A stretch of DNA of 64,000 nucleotides from Rhizobacter sp. SG703 (GTDB taxonomy: Bacteria > Pseudomonadota > Gammaproteobacteria > Burkholderiales > Burkholderiaceae_C), in assembly GCF_012275445.1 (NCBI RefSeq), contig NZ_JAAZQK010000005.1, positions 434,001 to 498,000 on the forward strand, read 5' to 3'. Below, in pieces: positions 45,458-58,210 of the stretch. Both the position numbers and the translations under genes were made by a program. The stretch's first letter is position 1, and each line of letters opens with the position of its first letter. The notes beneath the pieces are model-generated. The model made no database searches, was not told the origin of the DNA, and saw nothing but the letters and a program-made list of their open reading frames with translations.

Positions 45458-47845
45458 ATGCCCCCGCGAAACGAAGCCGACGGCTTCCTGCCCCGCATCC
45501 AGATCGTCACCGCCACCCGGCGCTACCGGCTCGGCGGCCCCGGCACGGCGCCGGACCCGGCGCTGCGCGCCCGCACGCTGGCGAACGAGGCAATGCGCTG
45601 GAGCTACGTGCTGCGCAGCCGCGAGCGCTGGCGCGACATGCCCGACGTGGCCGACCGCCACCAGGCCGATGCCACCGCGACGCTGAATGCCTTCGGGCTG
45701 GGCGACGAGGCGCTGCGCGAGATCGCGCAGGCCGGCCGCGCCGTCGTGACGATGCCGTTCGAGACCGAGAGCGTCGGCTGGGAGGGCCGCATCTTCCCGT
45801 GGGAGTTCGTGCTGTCGCGTGCGACGCGTCGCTACCGGCGCGCGGGCGGGGCCGCGGCCTCGGGCGGACACGGCCTGACGGTGATGCGCCACCTCGACCT
45901 CGCCGAGCGTCCGCCGTTGCCGGTGCGCCGCATGGACGGCCGGGTGCTGGTCGTGCAGAGCCTGCCCGGCGCGCTGGCGCAGGCCTATGACGCCACCGAC
46001 GAGACCGAGCGCGTGCGCCGCGCCTTCGGGCTGCACGGCGACGACCCGCGCTGGCGCGTGGCCGTCAACCCGACGCTGGGCGAGCTGACCGCGCTGTGCG
46101 CGGCGTTCCGGCCGGAGGTGGTGCATTTCTGCGGCTTCGACAACCACGAAGGCATCGCGCAGCTGGCCAACAGCGCCGGCACCGATGTCGCGGTGACGCT
46201 GCGCGACGAGCGGCGCAGCGCCGCCGACTGGCAGCGCGACGACAAAGGCGTGGTCGACGGCTGCCTGATGCGGCGCAGCGACGGCCTGCCGGTGATGGTG
46301 GCGCCGCCCGAGCTGGCGCATGCGCTGACCGGCGGCGGTCGCCACCGCCCGTTCTTCGTCGGCCTGAACCTGTGGAACTCGGCAGCCCGCATCGCTCCGC
46401 AGCTGCTGCCGGCCGGCGTGCTGGCCGCGATGGGTTTCCAGGATGCATTCGACGACGCGCTGGCCGGCTACTTCTTCGAGACGCTGTATGCGCAGCTCGC
46501 GGCGCAGGCGTGGAACCTGCCGGTCGCGTTCGAGCAGGCCTGGGCCGCGACGCGCTCGCAGGTCGACCTGGTGCCCGGCACCGGCATCGCGCTGTGGGCG
46601 CGGGCGCCGCTGGTCGCGCAGCGCAGTGCACCGCACCTCGCCCGGCCGGCGGCGGCCGCGGCCGCGCGTGTGCCGTCGGTGTCGCGCGCCTTGTTGCGCG
46701 CCGTCGTCGAACCGCGCACCGAATTCAACTACGCCGAGCTGCACAACCAGGGCGACCCCGCCGAGAAGCGCAGCGCGCTGTTCCACCGCTTCGAGCTGCG
46801 CGGCGCGGTCACGCAACCGCCGACGCGGGCGCAGGTGCTGGTCGAGCTGAACTGCGGCATCGAACGCGCACGCTACGAGGCCGAGATCGAGCTGACGCAG
46901 GAGCGCACCAGCCTCGGCGCGCGCATCAAGATGCCGCTGACCGCGCGGCTGATGCGCTCGGTCTCCGAAGCGGTCGTCAGCAGCCTGTTCGTGCAGGTGG
47001 TGGTCGGCGGCCGGGTGATCCACAAGGACACCTACGCGATGCGGCTGATGCCGGTCGACCAGTGGCTGGACAACAGCACCAGCGGCGTCTGGCTGCCGTC
47101 GTTCGTGCTGCCGCGCGACCCGGCGGTCGAGCGCGCGATCACGCTCGCGCAGCGCTACGTGCGGGTGATCCGCGACGACCCGAGCGCCGGCTTCGAGGGC
47201 TACCAGTCGTCGTCGTCCGCCGACCCGGCCAGCCTCGAGAACGTCGACCTGCAGGTCGAGGCGATCTGGTCGGCGCTGCTGCACGAATGGGACCTCGGCT
47301 ACATCAACCCGCCGCCCACCTACAACCGCGCACTCGATTCGCAGCGCCTGCGCACGCCGAGCGCGGTGCGTGCGGCGCGCATGGGCACCTGCATCGACCT
47401 GACGCTGCTGTTCGCCGCCTGCCTCGAGCTGGTCGACATCCACCCGGTGGTGTTCCTGCTCGACGGCCACGCGCTGCCCGGCTACTGGCGCCACCGCGAC
47501 TACCAGTTCGCGTACCGCGAAGTGATCGAACCGGGCGACGCGATGCCGCCGAGCGACGAGCACCGCAGCGGCTCGCCGGGCGCGCAGACGCGGCCGTGGC
47601 GGGCCGGTCGCGCCAGCTACCGCGAGGTGTGGGGGCTGATCCGCGACGGCAAGCTGGCGCCGCTGGAGAGCGTGCGGCTGACCGAGCACTGCGGCTTCCG
47701 CGAAGCGCGCGAGGCCGGCGTGCAGGCGCTCAGCGAGCCGCGCGATTTCGATTCGATCCTCGACATCGCGATCGCGCGCGAGCACCAGGTCACGCCGCTG
47801 CCGATCGTGGCGCCGGCCGCGCTGGCCCTCGGGGAGCGCGCATGA
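45458..47845 (+). CDS. CHAT-like domain fused to transglutaminase-like protease
   Basis: The 795-residue protein begins like CHAT caspase-family proteins: SYVLRSRERWRD, then WEGRIFPWEFVL (the CHAT PWE motif), then EVVHFCGFDNHEG and FFVGLNLWNSA. In active CHAT proteases the second motif reads HFxGHG and the third LNACxS; here the catalytic positions are Phe227 and Trp306, so the CHAT site looks dead. The C-terminal third has a transglutaminase-like motif, MGTCIDLTLLFAACLEL (Cys645) and LLDGHALPGYWR (His671), as seen in DUF4011-type helicases. A middle beta-rich region separates them. The stop overlaps the next hydrolase gene (ATGA). The two genes look like a self-contained effector or defence module; this is inference. 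Confidence 0.72.
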   Translation: MPPRNEADGFLPRIQIVTATRRYRLGGPGTAPDPALRARTLANEAMRWSYVLRSRERWRDMPDVADRHQADATATLNAFGLGDEALREIAQAGRAVVTMPFETESVGWEGRIFPWEFVLSRATRRYRRAGGAAASGGHGLTVMRHLDLAERPPLPVRRMDGRVLVVQSLPGALAQAYDATDETERVRRAFGLHGDDPRWRVAVNPTLGELTALCAAFRPEVVHFCGFDNHEGIAQLANSAGTDVAVTLRDERRSAADWQRDDKGVVDGCLMRRSDGLPVMVAPPELAHALTGGGRHRPFFVGLNLWNSAARIAPQLLPAGVLAAMGFQDAFDDALAGYFFETLYAQLAAQAWNLPVAFEQAWAATRSQVDLVPGTGIALWARAPLVAQRSAPHLARPAAAAAARVPSVSRALLRAVVEPRTEFNYAELHNQGDPAEKRSALFHRFELRGAVTQPPTRAQVLVELNCGIERARYEAEIELTQERTSLGARIKMPLTARLMRSVSEAVVSSLFVQVVVGGRVIHKDTYAMRLMPVDQWLDNSTSGVWLPSFVLPRDPAVERAITLAQRYVRVIRDDPSAGFEGYQSSSSADPASLENVDLQVEAIWSALLHEWDLGYINPPPTYNRALDSQRLRTPSAVRAARMGTCIDLTLLFAACLELVDIHPVVFLLDGHALPGYWRHRDYQFAYREVIEPGDAMPPSDEHRSGSPGAQTRPWRAGRASYREVWGLIRDGKLAPLESVRLTEHCGFREAREAGVQALSEPRDFDSILDIAIAREHQVTPLPIVAPAALALGERA

Positions 47846-49173
47846 ACGACGCCATCACGACCGGCGATCCGCTGCCGTTCAGCGCCGCACCGTGGGCGGC
47901 GGTCGATGCGCGGCTCGGGCTGAGCGAGCCGGCGCCCGCGCAGGCCGCGGCATTGCCGATCTCGATGCGGCGGCGTCGCGGCTTCACGCCGTCGATGGCC
48001 GATCCGCGCGCCAGCGTCAGCCTGCGCGACGACGACGGCGTGCTGCGCTGGAACTACGAGCCGCCGGCCGCCCAGGTGCTGCGCGGCCGGTCGCGCCGCG
48101 CCGGCGGGTTCGGCTTCGGCGACCTGCTGCAGCGCTTCGAGTACGACGACATCGGGCCGAACCGCGTGGCGCAGTCGCTGGTCGCGCTCGACGCTCGGCT
48201 CACGCCGCACCAGGGGCTGCGCCAGTGGGTCGGCGGCGCGCTGGTGCCGGCGCCCGCGCCGCAGCCCGGCGGCGCGCAGCGCACGCTGCTGCTGCTGCAC
48301 GGCACCTTCAGCAACGGCGACATGTGGTTCGACCAGCTCGGCGCAACGCCGGCCGGCGTTGCGCTGCTCGCGCAGTGGCAGCAGGTCTACGGCGAGCGCA
48401 TCTTCGCGTTCGACCACCCGACGCTGTCGGTCGCACCGTGGCTGAACGCGCTCGACCTGCAGCGCGCGCTGCGCGGCATCGCCGGGCCGGTCGACGTCGT
48501 GTGCCACAGCCGCGGCGGGCTGGTCGCGTCGTGGCTGCTACGGCTCGCGCCGGTGCGGGTGCAGCAGGTGGTGTTCGTCGGCTCGCCGCTCGGCGGCACC
48601 AGCCTCGCGTCGCCGTACCGCCTGCGTGCCGCGCTCGACATGCTGGCCAACATCGCGAACGCGCTGTCGCTGGCCGGGCAGGCGGCGAGCACGGTGTTCC
48701 CGCTGGCCGCCGGCGCGGCCGGGCTCGCCAAGGTGCTGGGCAAGACGCTGCAGCTCGGCGCGGCGCTGCCGCTGGCCGACGCGGCGGTGGCGCTGGTGCC
48801 GGGCCTCGCGAGCCAGCAGCGCGTCAGCGACAACGCCGAGACGCGCGCGCTGTTCGACGACCGCTGGCTGGTGCAGCCGCGCTTCGCGGTGGTGTCGGCC
48901 GATTTCGAGCCGAACCTCGGCGAGCCGGCGTGGAAGTTCTGGACGCGCTTCCGCAACCCCGGCCTGCAACTGGCGAGCCTCGGCGCCGACATCGTGTTCC
49001 CCGGTGCCAACGACCTGGTCGTCGACACCGGGTCGATGAGCTTCCTCGGCCAGCCGGCGCAGGGCAAGCCGGAGCTGCTGTCGCTCGGCAGGACGGCGAC
49101 GACCTTCCACACGAACTATTTTCGCGATCCGGCGGTGGTGGCGTTTCTCGCGCGGAAGGCGCAGGGCGCCTGA
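47842..49173 (+). CDS. Alpha/beta hydrolase partnered with the CHAT-like gene
   Basis: The 443-residue protein has an alpha/beta hydrolase core: TLLLLHGTFSNGDMWFDQL (oxyanion loop HG), VDVVCHSRGGLVASWLL with nucleophile Ser in CHSRGG, GANDLVVDT as the candidate acid, and TATTFHTNYFRD as the candidate His. A hydrophobic insert (ALSLAGQAASTVFPLAAGAA) after the nucleophile may act as a lid or membrane patch. This resembles the lipase-like hydrolases that accompany CHAT proteins in other genomes. The ATG overlaps the CHAT gene stop, so the products are probably made in equal amounts and act together. No signal peptide is seen. Confidence 0.82.
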   Translation: MNDAITTGDPLPFSAAPWAAVDARLGLSEPAPAQAAALPISMRRRRGFTPSMADPRASVSLRDDDGVLRWNYEPPAAQVLRGRSRRAGGFGFGDLLQRFEYDDIGPNRVAQSLVALDARLTPHQGLRQWVGGALVPAPAPQPGGAQRTLLLLHGTFSNGDMWFDQLGATPAGVALLAQWQQVYGERIFAFDHPTLSVAPWLNALDLQRALRGIAGPVDVVCHSRGGLVASWLLRLAPVRVQQVVFVGSPLGGTSLASPYRLRAALDMLANIANALSLAGQAASTVFPLAAGAAGLAKVLGKTLQLGAALPLADAAVALVPGLASQQRVSDNAETRALFDDRWLVQPRFAVVSADFEPNLGEPAWKFWTRFRNPGLQLASLGADIVFPGANDLVVDTGSMSFLGQPAQGKPELLSLGRTATTFHTNYFRDPAVVAFLARKAQGA

Positions 49174-49197: not shown

Positions 49198-50013
49198 TCA
49201 GGCCCGCGGCTTCTCGATGCCGACGAGCTCCTCCAGCGTCTTCGCATAGTCCACGCACAGCTGCGCCATGGCGGCGAGATCGCCCGCGGCCAGGGCGGCA
49301 ACCGTCTTGCGCTGGAAATCTCCGATGGCGTCGGCGATGGCGGGCCTGAGGGCCTTGCCATTCGCGAGGCTCAGGATCGCCTGCCCGTCGGCGGCGAGGA
49401 ACCTGCACCACGTCTTCATGTGCTCGCTCGAGCATTCCCCCTGCCGGACCAACGCTTCGAGCTGGCCCGCGCGTTCCTTGATCCGGGAGCAATACGCCTT
49501 CTTCGTGCAAAGTGCCTGCGTGGACGCCTCGTCCACGGGATCCTTGCCGGCGGGCCGTTCGATCCCGACGAGGCTGTCCAGGTGCCGGGAATAGAGACGG
49601 CAGGTCTCGGCGACGTGCTGAAGGTCGCCGGCCCGGAAACCGAGGGCGACCACGTTGTCGAACTCGCGCAGCAATGCAGCGATGGCCGCTCGCTGGTGCT
49701 TGCCACCGACGCCGGACAGCACGGCCCGGCCGACATCGGTCAGGCGCGTGCACGCGGCGCCGACCTCCGGCCGCGAACCCCGGTCTGCCGCCTGTTTCGC
49801 CACCGCTGCGCCGACGCGGATGCTCGCGCACAGTTGCTCCTTCGACGGGATGCGGTCGGCCTTGCTGCCTTCCCAGGTGATGCTTGCGTTGCGACGAGGG
49901 CCGGCGAAGCGCTTCGAGACAGCGGGTGCCGCCGCCGGGTCGCCGGCCTGGCCGGGTGGCGGGGGGGCCCCGACGACGTGCTTGGGGGACGGATTGGGTC
50001 GGACGAAGGCCAT
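49198..50013 (-). CDS. Unknown protein with two Cys-containing internal repeats
   Basis: The 271-residue protein has a disordered Pro-rich N-terminus (about 55 residues) and two diverged repeats, about residues 58-155 and 166-269. Each ends with LVGIE and a Lys or Arg then Pro (LVGIERPAG, LVGIEKPRA). Three Cys are conserved at equal positions: Cys62/169, Cys88/203 and Cys138/253. The repeats look all-helical (AAIAALLREFDNVVALGFRA against PAIADAIGDFQRKTVAALAA). No signal peptide or known family is seen. AGGAG nine bases before the ATG at 50013 supports the start. It converges on the CHAT/hydrolase pair, so co-function is unproven. Confidence 0.7.
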   Translation of the reverse strand: MAFVRPNPSPKHVVGAPPPPGQAGDPAAAPAVSKRFAGPRRNASITWEGSKADRIPSKEQLCASIRVGAAVAKQAADRGSRPEVGAACTRLTDVGRAVLSGVGGKHQRAAIAALLREFDNVVALGFRAGDLQHVAETCRLYSRHLDSLVGIERPAGKDPVDEASTQALCTKKAYCSRIKERAGQLEALVRQGECSSEHMKTWCRFLAADGQAILSLANGKALRPAIADAIGDFQRKTVAALAAGDLAAMAQLCVDYAKTLEELVGIEKPRA

Positions 50014-53724: not shown

Positions 53725-53838
53725 GGCGGGCGAGGAAGGCTGCAGGAAAGGGGGCGGCGGGGCAGGAGCGGGATTGTCGCACCGGGGTGAAGAGTCTTTA
53801 CCGATACGAGGTACGAGAATGCCGACCGAGGAGACCGC

Positions 53839-54480
53839 ATGACCGCCGACACATCACCGCAGGACGCACACCCGATCGCTGCCGACATCCGGGCGGGATC
53901 ATGGCCAGACTCGCCGCCGTCGAGACCCAGGAAGGGGTGCGTATCCTGTTCGCCTGCGAATCCGGCAGCCGGGGCTGGGGATTGGCGTCGCCCGACTCCG
54001 ACTACGACGTTCGCTTCATCTTCGTTCGACCGGCACGCGACTACCTTCGGATCACCGCGGTGCGCGACGTGATCGAAGAGGTGCCCGGACCGGTGTTCGA
54101 CGTCAACGGATGGGACCTTCGCAAGGCGCTGGGGCTGTCGGCCAAAGGCAATGCGACGCTGGTGGAGTGGCTGAGCTCGCCGGTGGTGTACCGCGCCGAC
54201 GAACGCTTCCTGGCGAGGCTTCGCGAGGCCGCCGCCGCCGATGGCGTTCGAGGCGCTCGTCGACGCGATGGTCGACGATCCGGCGGTGCGCCAGGAGATC
54301 GCCGAGTTGCTGGTGTCGAAGCGCCGCAGCGGCGAGCAGGAGTGGCTGCCGGCGCGGCCGGTTCTCAATGCCTTCATCGGCACGCTGGTCGCAGAACTGG
54401 CGCAGGCCCGGCCGCGGGATGAGTCGGTGTCGCTCGAGCGGCTGGACGACGTGCTGTTCGAGACGGTGATGGGCGGGTAG
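53839..54480 (+). pseudogene. RlaP-type nucleotidyltransferase pseudogene, two lesions
   Basis: The frame from the ATG at 53839 (after CGAGGAGACCGC, a strong ribosome binding site) reads into PIAADIRAG and then must shift by one base near 53895 to continue as MARLAAVETQEGVRILFACE. That segment carries the nucleotidyltransferase signature GSRGWGLASPDSDYDVRFIF, as in COG3541/RlaP proteins. It then ends abruptly near 54236 and resumes in another frame as PMAFEALVDAMVDDPAVRQE. About 50 residues normally found between these points (the region around HYLHMAE...LKKYLYVLRPLLA, recalled from the family) are missing. Two independent lesions make an active protein unlikely. The final stop is at 54480. 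Confidence 0.78.
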
Positions 54481-55195: not shown

Positions 55196-58100
55196 TTACC
55201 AGCCCGAGTTGCCGGTCCCGCGGATGAAGAAGCTGCTCGGTGCGGTGTCCTGCTTCAGCCCGCCAAGCGCCGGGTTCGTCACGACCACGCCGTCGAAGTT
55301 CACCGCGCCGCGTCCACCGTTGTCGATGACCTCGATGCCGTATTTGCCGGGGTTGGTGATCTTGATGTTCTTCAGCCTGACGTTGCTGAACCTCGCGTTG
55401 TCGGCGTCGCGCAGCAGGTCCGGATGGAACTTCTCGCCCGGCGGCACGAAGGCCGTGCCGAAGCCGCGGAACTCGATGCCGGAGTAGGTCGGGTCGACGA
55501 TGTCGAGGTTCTCCACCAGGATGTCGTTGACGCTGCCTTCGCGCATGTAGAACTTCAGCGCGCCGTGCTGCCACGGCATGCCGGTGTTCTCCATGAACAT
55601 CGGGCCGCCCGCGCGGATCAGCGAGATGTTGCTGAAGGTCGTCGCCGCCGGGCCGAACGGGTAGGGGCTGAACTCGTTGTCGATCAGGATGCCCGGGTAG
55701 GTCAGCACGTCTTCGCAGACGCTGTCCTTGAACACGTTGTTCGCACCGCCATACGCCGCGAAGCAGTTGGCGCGCCACGGCATCTGCACCGTGTTGTTGC
55801 GGAACACGTTGTTGACGCCCTGGCCCTGGTCGGGCGCGTTCTTGCCTTCCGGGCTGATGAAGTTGTCGCCCAGCTGGTACGTCTTCTCCTTGACCCAGTC
55901 GGTCCACTTGATCGACCACACCACCAGCGCGTCATCGCCGGTGTTGCGCAGGTGGCAGTTCTCGACCACCGAGTTCGACGTGCCGTTGTCGAGGTTGATG
56001 CCGTCTGCGTACGTGTTGCGGATGCGGCAGTTGCGGATCGTCAGGTTCTGCGTCGGCTGCGTCTGGTACGGGGGGTCGTTGCCGACCCAGATCGCACCGA
56101 CCACGTGCTCGATCCAGACGTTCTCGATCAGGCTGTTGGCGCCCATCGGGCCGGCGAAGGCCTTCTGCACGCCTTCCGACTCTTCGGCACGGGCCTTCGA
56201 TTCGCCGAGGATCGAGAAGTCGCCGAACACGCATTTCGCGCTCGCGCCGTAGCAGAAGAACAGCGACTTCGGGCCCTTCAGGTTCGTGTACCACATGCCC
56301 GCGCCGCGCACCTCGATGCCCGGGTTGTCGAGCCCGACGTTGCCGCCGGAGATCTTCTGCAGCAGGTAGTCGCCGGGCGGGAACCACAGCTTGCTGGTCG
56401 AGCGCATCGCGCGCAGCACGTCGTCGGCATGGTCCTTGCCGTCGTTCGGCTGGATGCCGAAGCTCGTCACCGACGTGAAGCCCGCCGGCATCGTCAGCGC
56501 GTCGGGCACGGGCTCGATGTCGACCAGGTCGATCACGTAGAACGCGGCGCTGTCCTGCGCGTCGCGGCGCAGCATCACCGTCGCGCCGGCCGGGATGGTG
56601 TCGACCAGCGTGCGCACCTCGTCGAAGAAGGTGTGCGGCTGGCCGGCCGGCTTGTCGACGATCGGGTCGCCGATCAGCCCGCCCTGGTACGACCAGCTGT
56701 AGCGCGAGGTCAGCGGCAGCGTCTTCACGCGCACGCCGTTCACGTACAGGCCGAGCGTGCTGTCGATGCCGCCGCCGCCCGGGGCGTCGGGGATCGAGTA
56801 GCGCACGACGACGCCGTTGCCGGCCTTCGTGGTCTTGAACGACACGTAGTCGCCGGTCTTGTTCAGGCGCACCGCCTTGCGGCCGATGGCCTCGGCCTCG
56901 ATGTGGTTCGCGTCCCACTTCTGGCGGCTCGGGCCGAGGATCTGCGCGTTGGTGGTGCCGTCTTCGGCCTGGTACTCGACCCAGGGCACGTTCGCGCCAC
57001 GGCCGACCGGCACCGGCGCGGGCGCAGGCGCGGGGGACGGCGCCGGGGCAGGCGCGGGTGCGGGCGCCGGAGCGGGCGCTGGTGCCGGGCTCGGCGCAGG
57101 GGCCGGAGCGGGGGCCGGTGCAGGGGCGGGTGCAGGAGCGGGAGCCGGGGCCGGCGTGGGGGCGGGTGCCGGCGCCGGAGCGGGCGCGGGGGCCGGTGCC
57201 GGTGCGGGCGAAGGCGCCGGCGCGGCCGCGACCAGCGTCCACTTCTCGGTCTCGCCGCCGTTGCAGCTCCACTGGCCGATGTGGCCGCCTTCGGCCTTGC
57301 TGAAGTTGCCGACGTCCAGGCACTTGTTGCTGTGCTTGAAGCGCACGTTCACCAGCCCGCCGCCCAGGTTGTCGAGCGCGAAGCGCTGGTTGTCGCCGCC
57401 GCCGTACTGCCACTGGTGCACGTTGGCACCGTCGGCGGTCGACACGTCCTGCACGTCGATCACCTTGCCGCTGTTCGCGTTCGTCAGGTGGTAGTAGCCC
57501 TCGGTGTCGCGCACCAGGTCGAACAGCCGGCCGAGCGAGCTGTTGCAGGCCATCTGCACGATGTCGGCGCCGCTGATCGTCGAGTCGCCGGCGACCGCCA
57601 GGCACAGGCCGCTGAAGTTCGAGCGCACGCTGTAGCGCGACGACGGCGCAGGGGCCGGCGTCGGGGCCGGTGCGGGCGCCGGCGCCGGGGCGGGCGCGCC
57701 GGCCACCGGCACGAAGCTCCACTTCTCGGTCTCGCCGTCGTTGCACTCCCACTGGCCGATGGCGCCGCCCGGCGCGCGGCTCGCGTTGCCGACGTCCATG
57801 CACTTGTTGCTGTGCTTGAAGCGCACGTAGTACTTGCCGCCGCCCAGGTCCTGCAGCGCGACGCGCTGGTTGTCGCCGTTCAGCCAGGTCCACTGGTGCA
57901 CGTTGGCGCCGTTGGCCGTCGAGATGTCCTGCACGTCGACGACCTTGCCGCTGTTCACGTTCACCAGCCGGTACCAGCCCTGGGCGTCGCGCTGCAGGTC
58001 GAACTGGCGCGCAGCCGAGTTGTCGCAGGTCCATTGCACGACGTTCGCGCCTTCGGCGGTGGATGCGCCGTCGACCGCCAGGCACAGGCCGCTGAACGAC

Positions 58101-58210
58101 GAGCGGACGGTGTAGCGGCCGGCGGCCAGGTCGGCGGCGTGGCCGAGCTGCGTGAAGCCGGCGCCGACGATCAACGCCAGGCAGAGCTTGCTGCTTCGAA
58201 ACGGAAACAT
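55196..58210 (-). CDS. Secreted GH87-type alpha-1,3-glucanase with two ricin-B lectin domains
   Basis: The 1004-residue protein has a signal peptide (SSKLCLALIVGAGFTQLGHA) and two ricin-B beta-trefoils (about 26-165 and 188-320; GKVVDVQDISTANGANVHQW, KHSNKCMDVGN). A Pro/Ala linker (326-404) follows, then a carbohydrate-binding-like module (VEYQAEDGTTNAQILGPSRQ) and a right-handed beta-helix. The sequence IPDAPGGGGIDSTLGLYVNG matches mycodextranase/GH87 enzymes. Three Asp likely form the active site: Asp736 in YADGINLDN and Asp759-Asp760 in NTGDDALVVW. It probably cuts alpha-1,3-glucans such as fungal wall or mutan. A LacI/CRE-like site lies upstream at 58305. Monocistronic. Confidence 0.85.
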   Translation of the reverse strand: MFPFRSSKLCLALIVGAGFTQLGHAADLAAGRYTVRSSFSGLCLAVDGASTAEGANVVQWTCDNSAARQFDLQRDAQGWYRLVNVNSGKVVDVQDISTANGANVHQWTWLNGDNQRVALQDLGGGKYYVRFKHSNKCMDVGNASRAPGGAIGQWECNDGETEKWSFVPVAGAPAPAPAPAPAPTPAPAPSSRYSVRSNFSGLCLAVAGDSTISGADIVQMACNSSLGRLFDLVRDTEGYYHLTNANSGKVIDVQDVSTADGANVHQWQYGGGDNQRFALDNLGGGLVNVRFKHSNKCLDVGNFSKAEGGHIGQWSCNGGETEKWTLVAAAPAPSPAPAPAPAPAPAPAPAPTPAPAPAPAPAPAPAPAPAPAPSPAPAPAPAPAPAPAPAPSPAPAPAPVPVGRGANVPWVEYQAEDGTTNAQILGPSRQKWDANHIEAEAIGRKAVRLNKTGDYVSFKTTKAGNGVVVRYSIPDAPGGGGIDSTLGLYVNGVRVKTLPLTSRYSWSYQGGLIGDPIVDKPAGQPHTFFDEVRTLVDTIPAGATVMLRRDAQDSAAFYVIDLVDIEPVPDALTMPAGFTSVTSFGIQPNDGKDHADDVLRAMRSTSKLWFPPGDYLLQKISGGNVGLDNPGIEVRGAGMWYTNLKGPKSLFFCYGASAKCVFGDFSILGESKARAEESEGVQKAFAGPMGANSLIENVWIEHVVGAIWVGNDPPYQTQPTQNLTIRNCRIRNTYADGINLDNGTSNSVVENCHLRNTGDDALVVWSIKWTDWVKEKTYQLGDNFISPEGKNAPDQGQGVNNVFRNNTVQMPWRANCFAAYGGANNVFKDSVCEDVLTYPGILIDNEFSPYPFGPAATTFSNISLIRAGGPMFMENTGMPWQHGALKFYMREGSVNDILVENLDIVDPTYSGIEFRGFGTAFVPPGEKFHPDLLRDADNARFSNVRLKNIKITNPGKYGIEVIDNGGRGAVNFDGVVVTNPALGGLKQDTAPSSFFIRGTGNSGW
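57001..57235 (-). repeat. Low-complexity Pro-Ala linker coding repeat
   Basis: About 78 codons alternate Pro and Ala (with occasional Ser, Thr or Val) in the GH87 protein, giving a GC-rich near-repetitive DNA tract. It acts as a flexible linker between the lectin and glucanase parts. A shorter tract of the same kind lies near 57650-57710. Confidence 0.9.

Follow-up and report, generated by a model that had tools for sequence, protein, structure and literature searches.

What might a bacterium do with a protein that joins an inactive-looking CHAT protease domain to a second protease module, and whose gene overlaps that of a lipase-like hydrolase? Such a pair lies within a 64,000-nucleotide stretch of Rhizobacter sp. 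SG703 (contig NZ_JAAZQK010000005.1, positions 434,001 to 498,000, forward strand; hereafter the window), from a genome of 6.5 Mb. The gene set suggests, as far as sequence can tell, an undescribed protease-and-lipase switch serving cell defence or cell death. Computation supports both folds (CHAT and lipase), a dead site in the CHAT domain, the retention of the transglutaminase-like (TG-like) and hydrolase residues, the tight pairing of the genes and the kinship of their parts. We propose tentatively, with a confidence somewhat short of probable, that the pair is a two-component proteolytic switch made of a pseudo-CHAT dock, a TG-like protease and a lipase-like effector. The two open reading frames (ORFs) are arranged as follows, in window coordinates.

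45458..47845, + strand: ORF1, 795 residues, with a helical N-terminal part, a pseudo-CHAT domain, a beta-rich domain and a TG-like cysteine-protease module
47842..49173, + strand: ORF2, 443 residues, a DUF7379 alpha/beta hydrolase of lipase fold
47842..47845, + strand: ATGA overlap of ORF1 and ORF2 (4 bp), the same overlap in 16 of 18 loci

The pair and its pseudo-CHAT domain

Homologues of ORF1 and ORF2 are adjacent in 17 of 17 loci of a genome scan and in four of another five, the last of which runs out at a contig edge (L116 is L061 again and was left out of this count). Because the scan used two short patterns, the locus counts are lower bounds. The overlap was found by script in 15 loci and read from the printed sequence in L057; the exceptions are L053, with a gap of 94 bp, and L058, with 64 bp to the first in-frame start. 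Chance motifs were rejected as an explanation, since fold, profile and conservation across 23 loci all tell against them. The pair is sparse. Counting its own genome, 9 of the 250 genomes surveyed within the family have it, as do 3 of the 200 within the order, and a full-length ORF1 match was found in its own genome only, both among 369 genomes of the class and among 398 of the phylum. One locus of the pair family, L067, is a Phycisphaerales metagenome-assembled genome (MAG). Another, L066, is labelled a Methylotenera MAG; its pair and flanks are very close to those of Roseateles puraquae (L065), and its contig is probably mis-binned.

45908..46627, + strand: pseudo-CHAT domain, about residues 151-390
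46136..46138, + strand: Phe227, where CHAT peptidases have their catalytic His
46373..46375, + strand: Trp306, where CHAT peptidases have their catalytic Cys

The original prediction, made from the sequence alone, had read CHAT landmarks in the N-terminal module, with Phe227 and Trp306 replacing the catalytic His and Cys, and had named a fold other than CHAT as its refutation. The predicted structure of ORF1 proved to have the CHAT-family fold; the two residues are as described, and the catalytic His and Cys are missing in 23 of 23 loci. Pfam CHAT (PF12770, gathering threshold 24 bits) gave no match in ORF1, and relatives reach sub-threshold scores of 17.8 bits (L067) and 15.5 bits (P0003). 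The ratio of nonsynonymous to synonymous substitution rates (dN/dS) is low across the domain, at 0.10-0.40 in seven close pairs. From these alignments, the CHAT-like domain is predicted to be catalytically dead, with its fold kept across the family. That it still cleaves through other residues, such as His230, is very improbable: Asp228 and His230 are unchanged in 18 of 18 loci, but His230 is replaced by Leu in L112 and by Ala in L113, Asp228 is replaced by Gly in L113, and the aligned family loci hold no conserved Cys near position 306. An active site built on His230 was rejected on its loss in L112 and L113. The CHAT fold is common to ORF1, SAVED-CHAT (PDB 8tl0) and TPR-CHAT/Csx29, whereas ORF1 is without the catalytic residues and no SAVED or TPR part was recognised in it.

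The hydrolase and its CHAT-fused relatives

48508..48510, + strand: Ser223, predicted nucleophile (HSRGG)
48613..48858, + strand: helical lid-like insert, about residues 258-339, of modest confidence
49012..49014, + strand: Asp391, probable triad acid (Asp395 is invariant too)
49108..49110, + strand: His423, probable triad base

ORF2 bears out its earlier description as an alpha/beta hydrolase, matching Pfam PF24096 (DUF7379) at 109.4 bits against a gathering threshold of 33 bits. Its predicted structure holds both the Ser-Asp-His set and a lipase fold, and the best structural match is a propeptide-form lipase, with other lipases level with it in Z. Because Ser223, Asp391 and His423 are invariant in 18 of 18 loci, hydrolase catalysis is suggested. 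The insert, foreseen as possibly membrane-facing, could be recovered as the lid-like helical element listed above. Searched singly against PDB sequences, one of the two proteins gave no match and the other a single esterase at E 0.035, and we found no paper on DUF7379 among the open-access papers searched.

Outside the pair family, DUF7379 keeps different company. In a survey of 200 genomes, 72 had any match and 7 scored above the cut-off; G568, G166 and G425 were followed up besides the window, leaving out G468, G553 and G601 (33-34 bits). In all five DUF7379 proteins examined (from Ruegeria, G568, G166, G425 and Ensifer), the fusion partner is a CHAT domain that has its His and Cys. Conflict-type genes adjoin three of the five, namely AAA_21/SIR2_2 in Ruegeria, TIR_2 in G166 and nSTAND1 in Ensifer; the neighbour family search left out G568 and G425. 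These fusions (Ruegeria pomeroyi megaplasmid L068, Ensifer adhaerens plasmid L120, L099, L100 and L101) thus combine ORF2's hydrolase family with CHAT, but differ from the window pair in keeping the CHAT catalytic residues, in being single polypeptides and in having no TG-like module by Pfam; TPR-S or another hydrolase-like region occurs in some of them. Because DUF7379 is elsewhere fused to CHAT, we take ORF1's pseudo-CHAT domain to be a partner that the hydrolase has kept.

Three of the DUF7379 and CHAT proteins are large, at about 1800-1900 residues (L100:4763-10378, - strand; L101:5154-10823, - strand; L120:5425-10812, + strand). Those of L100 and L120 match LCAT too, as if holding a second hydrolase region, and that of L100 matches TPR-S; the neighbours are TIR_2 in L100 and nSTAND1 in L120.

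The transglutaminase-like module and its kin

46703..47812, + strand: beta-rich domain and TG-like module common to the ProA N-terminus, about residues 416-785
47390..47392, + strand: Cys645, probable nucleophile
47468..47470, + strand: His671, probable catalytic base
47666..47668, + strand: Glu737, probable third catalytic residue, judged from its invariance

The C-terminal half of ORF1 is related to a much larger protein. The NCBIfam ProA model NF058533 ('anti-phage protein ProA') matches ORF1 residues 456-681 with E 2.7e-46, the best stretch covering model positions 26-240 of 1903. Membership of ORF1 in ProA was rejected, since it scores 157.7 bits against a cut-off of 1500 on a model that includes the helicase region; two ProA-type giants score 2040 and 2311 bits. 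On the Hhe model too ORF1 scored below the cut-off. The module alignment reaches the C-terminus of ORF1 and ends just before the helicase part of the giants. Cys645, Asp647, His671 and Glu737 are invariant in 15 of 15 alignment rows, 12 of them ProA-type, which upholds the intact-looking Cys645/His671 site of the original prediction; in the predicted model Cys645 starts a helix and His671 a strand. ProA (about 1900-2000 residues) therefore has in common with ORF1 an N-terminal beta-rich and TG-like module with its Cys, His and Glu, whereas ORF1 is without a helicase or nuclease part, is joined to a pseudo-CHAT domain and is coupled to a hydrolase gene. Searches for more distant kin of the module gave faint matches: DUF553 at E<=1 in 8 of 17 members (0.0013 at best; none for the window protein), 3s3j at E 0.038, and one chance-level match in a PDB search with the module profile.

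Within the class, 6 other genomes of the 369 searched have the module, each time in a frame of 1778-2042 residues; within the phylum, 24 others of 398 have it, mostly in frames of 1700-2400 residues, the exceptions being one 977-residue frame and one frame split at a stop. A further search of 150 genomes found it in 13: nine in frames of 1180-2424 residues, three in the pseudo-CHAT family (G040, G1014, G803) and one, G1114, in a third setting. The G1114 protein (L137:7181-9541, + strand, contig C2; 787 residues) has an AAA+ ATPase N-terminus (GPPGTGKT, by eye) and ends in the same beta-rich and TG-like module (blastp E 6e-21). Sequence comparison thus indicates that the TG-like cassette is common to ProA giants, an AAA+ ATPase protein and ORF1. 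Judged by eye, the genes beside it in G1114 resemble PP2C and caspase genes, and an IS30-type transposase lies close by.

Mobile elements carry little that resembles the pair. The two-pattern scan of viral contigs gave 62 pattern matches, none a relative; a phage search gave a single, partial match, to the TG-like part; and 58 plasmid records matched, none spanning 80% of ORF1 in one place. The 30 plasmid matches listed involve the C-terminal part of ORF1 only and are annotated as DUF3320 (26), DUF4011 (1), DNA helicase (1) or nothing (2). Given these searches, we do not favour reading the pair as phage- or plasmid-borne cargo. A DUF4011 annotation does not by itself mark a gene as mobile defence, because passages of PMC10250203 describe such a gene as part of the core genome flanking a defence hotspot in Pseudomonas aeruginosa.

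Passages of Anantharaman 2013 (PMC3710099) identify a domain of DUF3320-bearing giants as a transglutaminase-like peptidase and suggest protein cleavage by it as a further line of defence. The MTES_1575-type giants described there have a TG-like peptidase in a predicted defence protein overlapping DUF3320; unlike ORF1 they carry an SF-I helicase, a Vsr-type nuclease and a wHTH, and the likeness is one of description, not alignment.

Proposed mechanism and its alternatives

A protease-gated lipase with a pseudo-caspase dock is the most economical reading of these data. We propose that the pseudo-CHAT domain would act as a non-catalytic dock or sensor, retained for binding the DUF7379 hydrolase in a complex, and that cutting would be done by the attached ProA-type TG-like cysteine protease. 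On a trigger, this protease, if active, would cleave ORF2 at its N-terminal extension or lid and so unleash the lipase-like hydrolase, activation thus running from ORF1 to ORF2. The freed hydrolase, active in its turn, could then attack membrane lipids or other acyl esters, leading to growth stop or cell death. We infer each of these steps from the parts involved. It is also possible, though we think it unlikely, that the pair records a protease swap in immunity, in which a DUF7379-linked CHAT lost catalysis and became a dock while an unrelated TG-like cassette took over the lipase-unleashing cut.

Precedents exist for parts of this scheme. The sections of Kaur 2020 (PMC7159879) that bear on it describe an alpha/beta-hydrolase gene as the constant neighbour of caspase-bearing VMAPs, about 70% of effector-position caspase domains of vWA proteins as inactive, inactive caspase domains in conflict systems as binding modules or dominant-negative regulators, and TG-like peptidases as rare in VMAPs. 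These MoxR-vWA systems resemble the window pair in their caspase-clan domain, often inactive, and adjoining alpha/beta-hydrolase gene, but no MoxR or vWA partner was recognised beside the window pair among the selected neighbours scanned, and the likeness is drawn at the level of alpha/beta hydrolases in general. Partner proteases that unlock pro-nucleases are described in parts of PMC12799240, where paired protease-effector switches are shown for nucleases. With those Canu, Hachiman and AVAST pairs only the proposed logic is alike, a partner protease unlocking an effector; their effector is a nuclease, whereas here it is lipase-like and its cleavage would be by analogy.

A different division of labour is one that we consider rather improbable: the hydrolase may be a sensor or brake whose lipase fold binds, with host or phage proteins being cut by the TG-like protease as effector. 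Both the protein cleavage suggested for ProA-type giants (PMC3710099) and the binding or dominant-negative roles of inactive caspase domains (PMC7159879) agree with such a regulatory or decoy module, but the invariant Ser, Asp and His of the hydrolase suggest catalysis.

Several results weigh against the proteolytic switch. Neither ORF1 nor ORF2 matched any family at E<=1 among the PADLOC-DB models; the ORF2 model is moderate, with a mean predicted local distance difference test score (pLDDT) of 65.5; and dN/dS of the ORF2 core is 0.25-0.43 in three Rhizobacter pairs, above that of the TG-like part of ORF1. No structure match confirmed the transglutaminase-like fold, and the ProA anti-phage label rests on NCBIfam, its origin not being found in the literature. 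The dock role is an extrapolation, because CHAT is active in the fused relatives. Finally, most pair loci read have housekeeping or metabolic neighbours and do not lie in defence islands.

A rival reading is a housekeeping role in lipid or polyester metabolism, with ORF2 as an intracellular esterase or depolymerase, ORF1 as its chaperone or processing peptidase, and no part in conflict. A common upstream block occurs in 11 of 18 loci (in L054 an argC-like semialdehyde dehydrogenase, an RBBP9-like serine hydrolase and ParB), the conserved upstream genes are a fixed chromosomal address for the pair, and the three Rhizobacter loci have a methionine-aminopeptidase-type gene and an SDR gene in common. 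The viral-contig scan, which gave no relative, points the same way. Against it stand the patchy presence in family and order and the conflict-type relatives of both enzyme parts, and on balance we regard it as unlikely. The original prediction had also named housekeeping contexts alone, with no link to defence or toxicity, as a refuter, and the survey came part of the way to that outcome. Neighbours in L061, L064, L067, L114 and L115 look metabolic or ordinary by eye, the contigs of L053 and L113 are too short to judge, and the only possibly defence-related neighbour recognised is an AAA_13 gene in L119 (807-3035, + strand, 7.7e-164), about 3.6 kb from the pair.

The original interpretation is partly supported. 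Its anatomy holds throughout the family; its defence or death reading has indirect support from the ProA-type module and from the CHAT-fused DUF7379 proteins, three of the five beside conflict-type genes, and the mostly housekeeping or metabolic contexts speak against it. Its view that no described system obviously matches stands insofar as PADLOC-DB gave no family and no paper on this two-gene set was found among the open-access matches listed. Named relatives exist for every part, however, and protease and hydrolase pairings have been described before; it is the combination that appears new.

Pseudo-caspase scaffolds are known in eukaryotic cell death. If our proposal is true, a bacterial counterpart linked to both a second protease and a lipase would show one way in which such scaffolds arise. 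The pair brings the partnership of CHAT with a hydrolase together with the protease module of ProA, two conflict parts seen separately elsewhere, and with its two genes is small enough for expression and testing; it would also let the ProA N-terminal module be tested apart from a 2000-residue protein.

Further observations concern the surroundings. Upstream of the pair in loci L055-L060, L062, L063 and L065, at a distance of about 5 kb or more, lie conserved genes in addition to the argC/RBBP9/parB block; in L065 these are PrkA AAA and DUF444, about 5 kb from the pair. In a same-genus genome (G006), a methionine-aminopeptidase relative alone, out of ten flank queries, matched the region compared. 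Next to the window pair, 49198-50001 (- strand) encodes a 267-residue protein with no Pfam match and tandem repeats of about 75 residues, apparently two by eye; it had no match at E<=1e-8 in the corresponding regions of two related Rhizobacter genomes. Farther on, 53787-54422 (+ strand) encodes an RlaP-type nucleotidyltransferase (PF10127, 1.1e-44), and 55196-58210 (- strand) a 1004-residue protein with ricin-type lectin repeats, a long Pro-Ala linker and alpha-1,3-glucanase catalytic domains.

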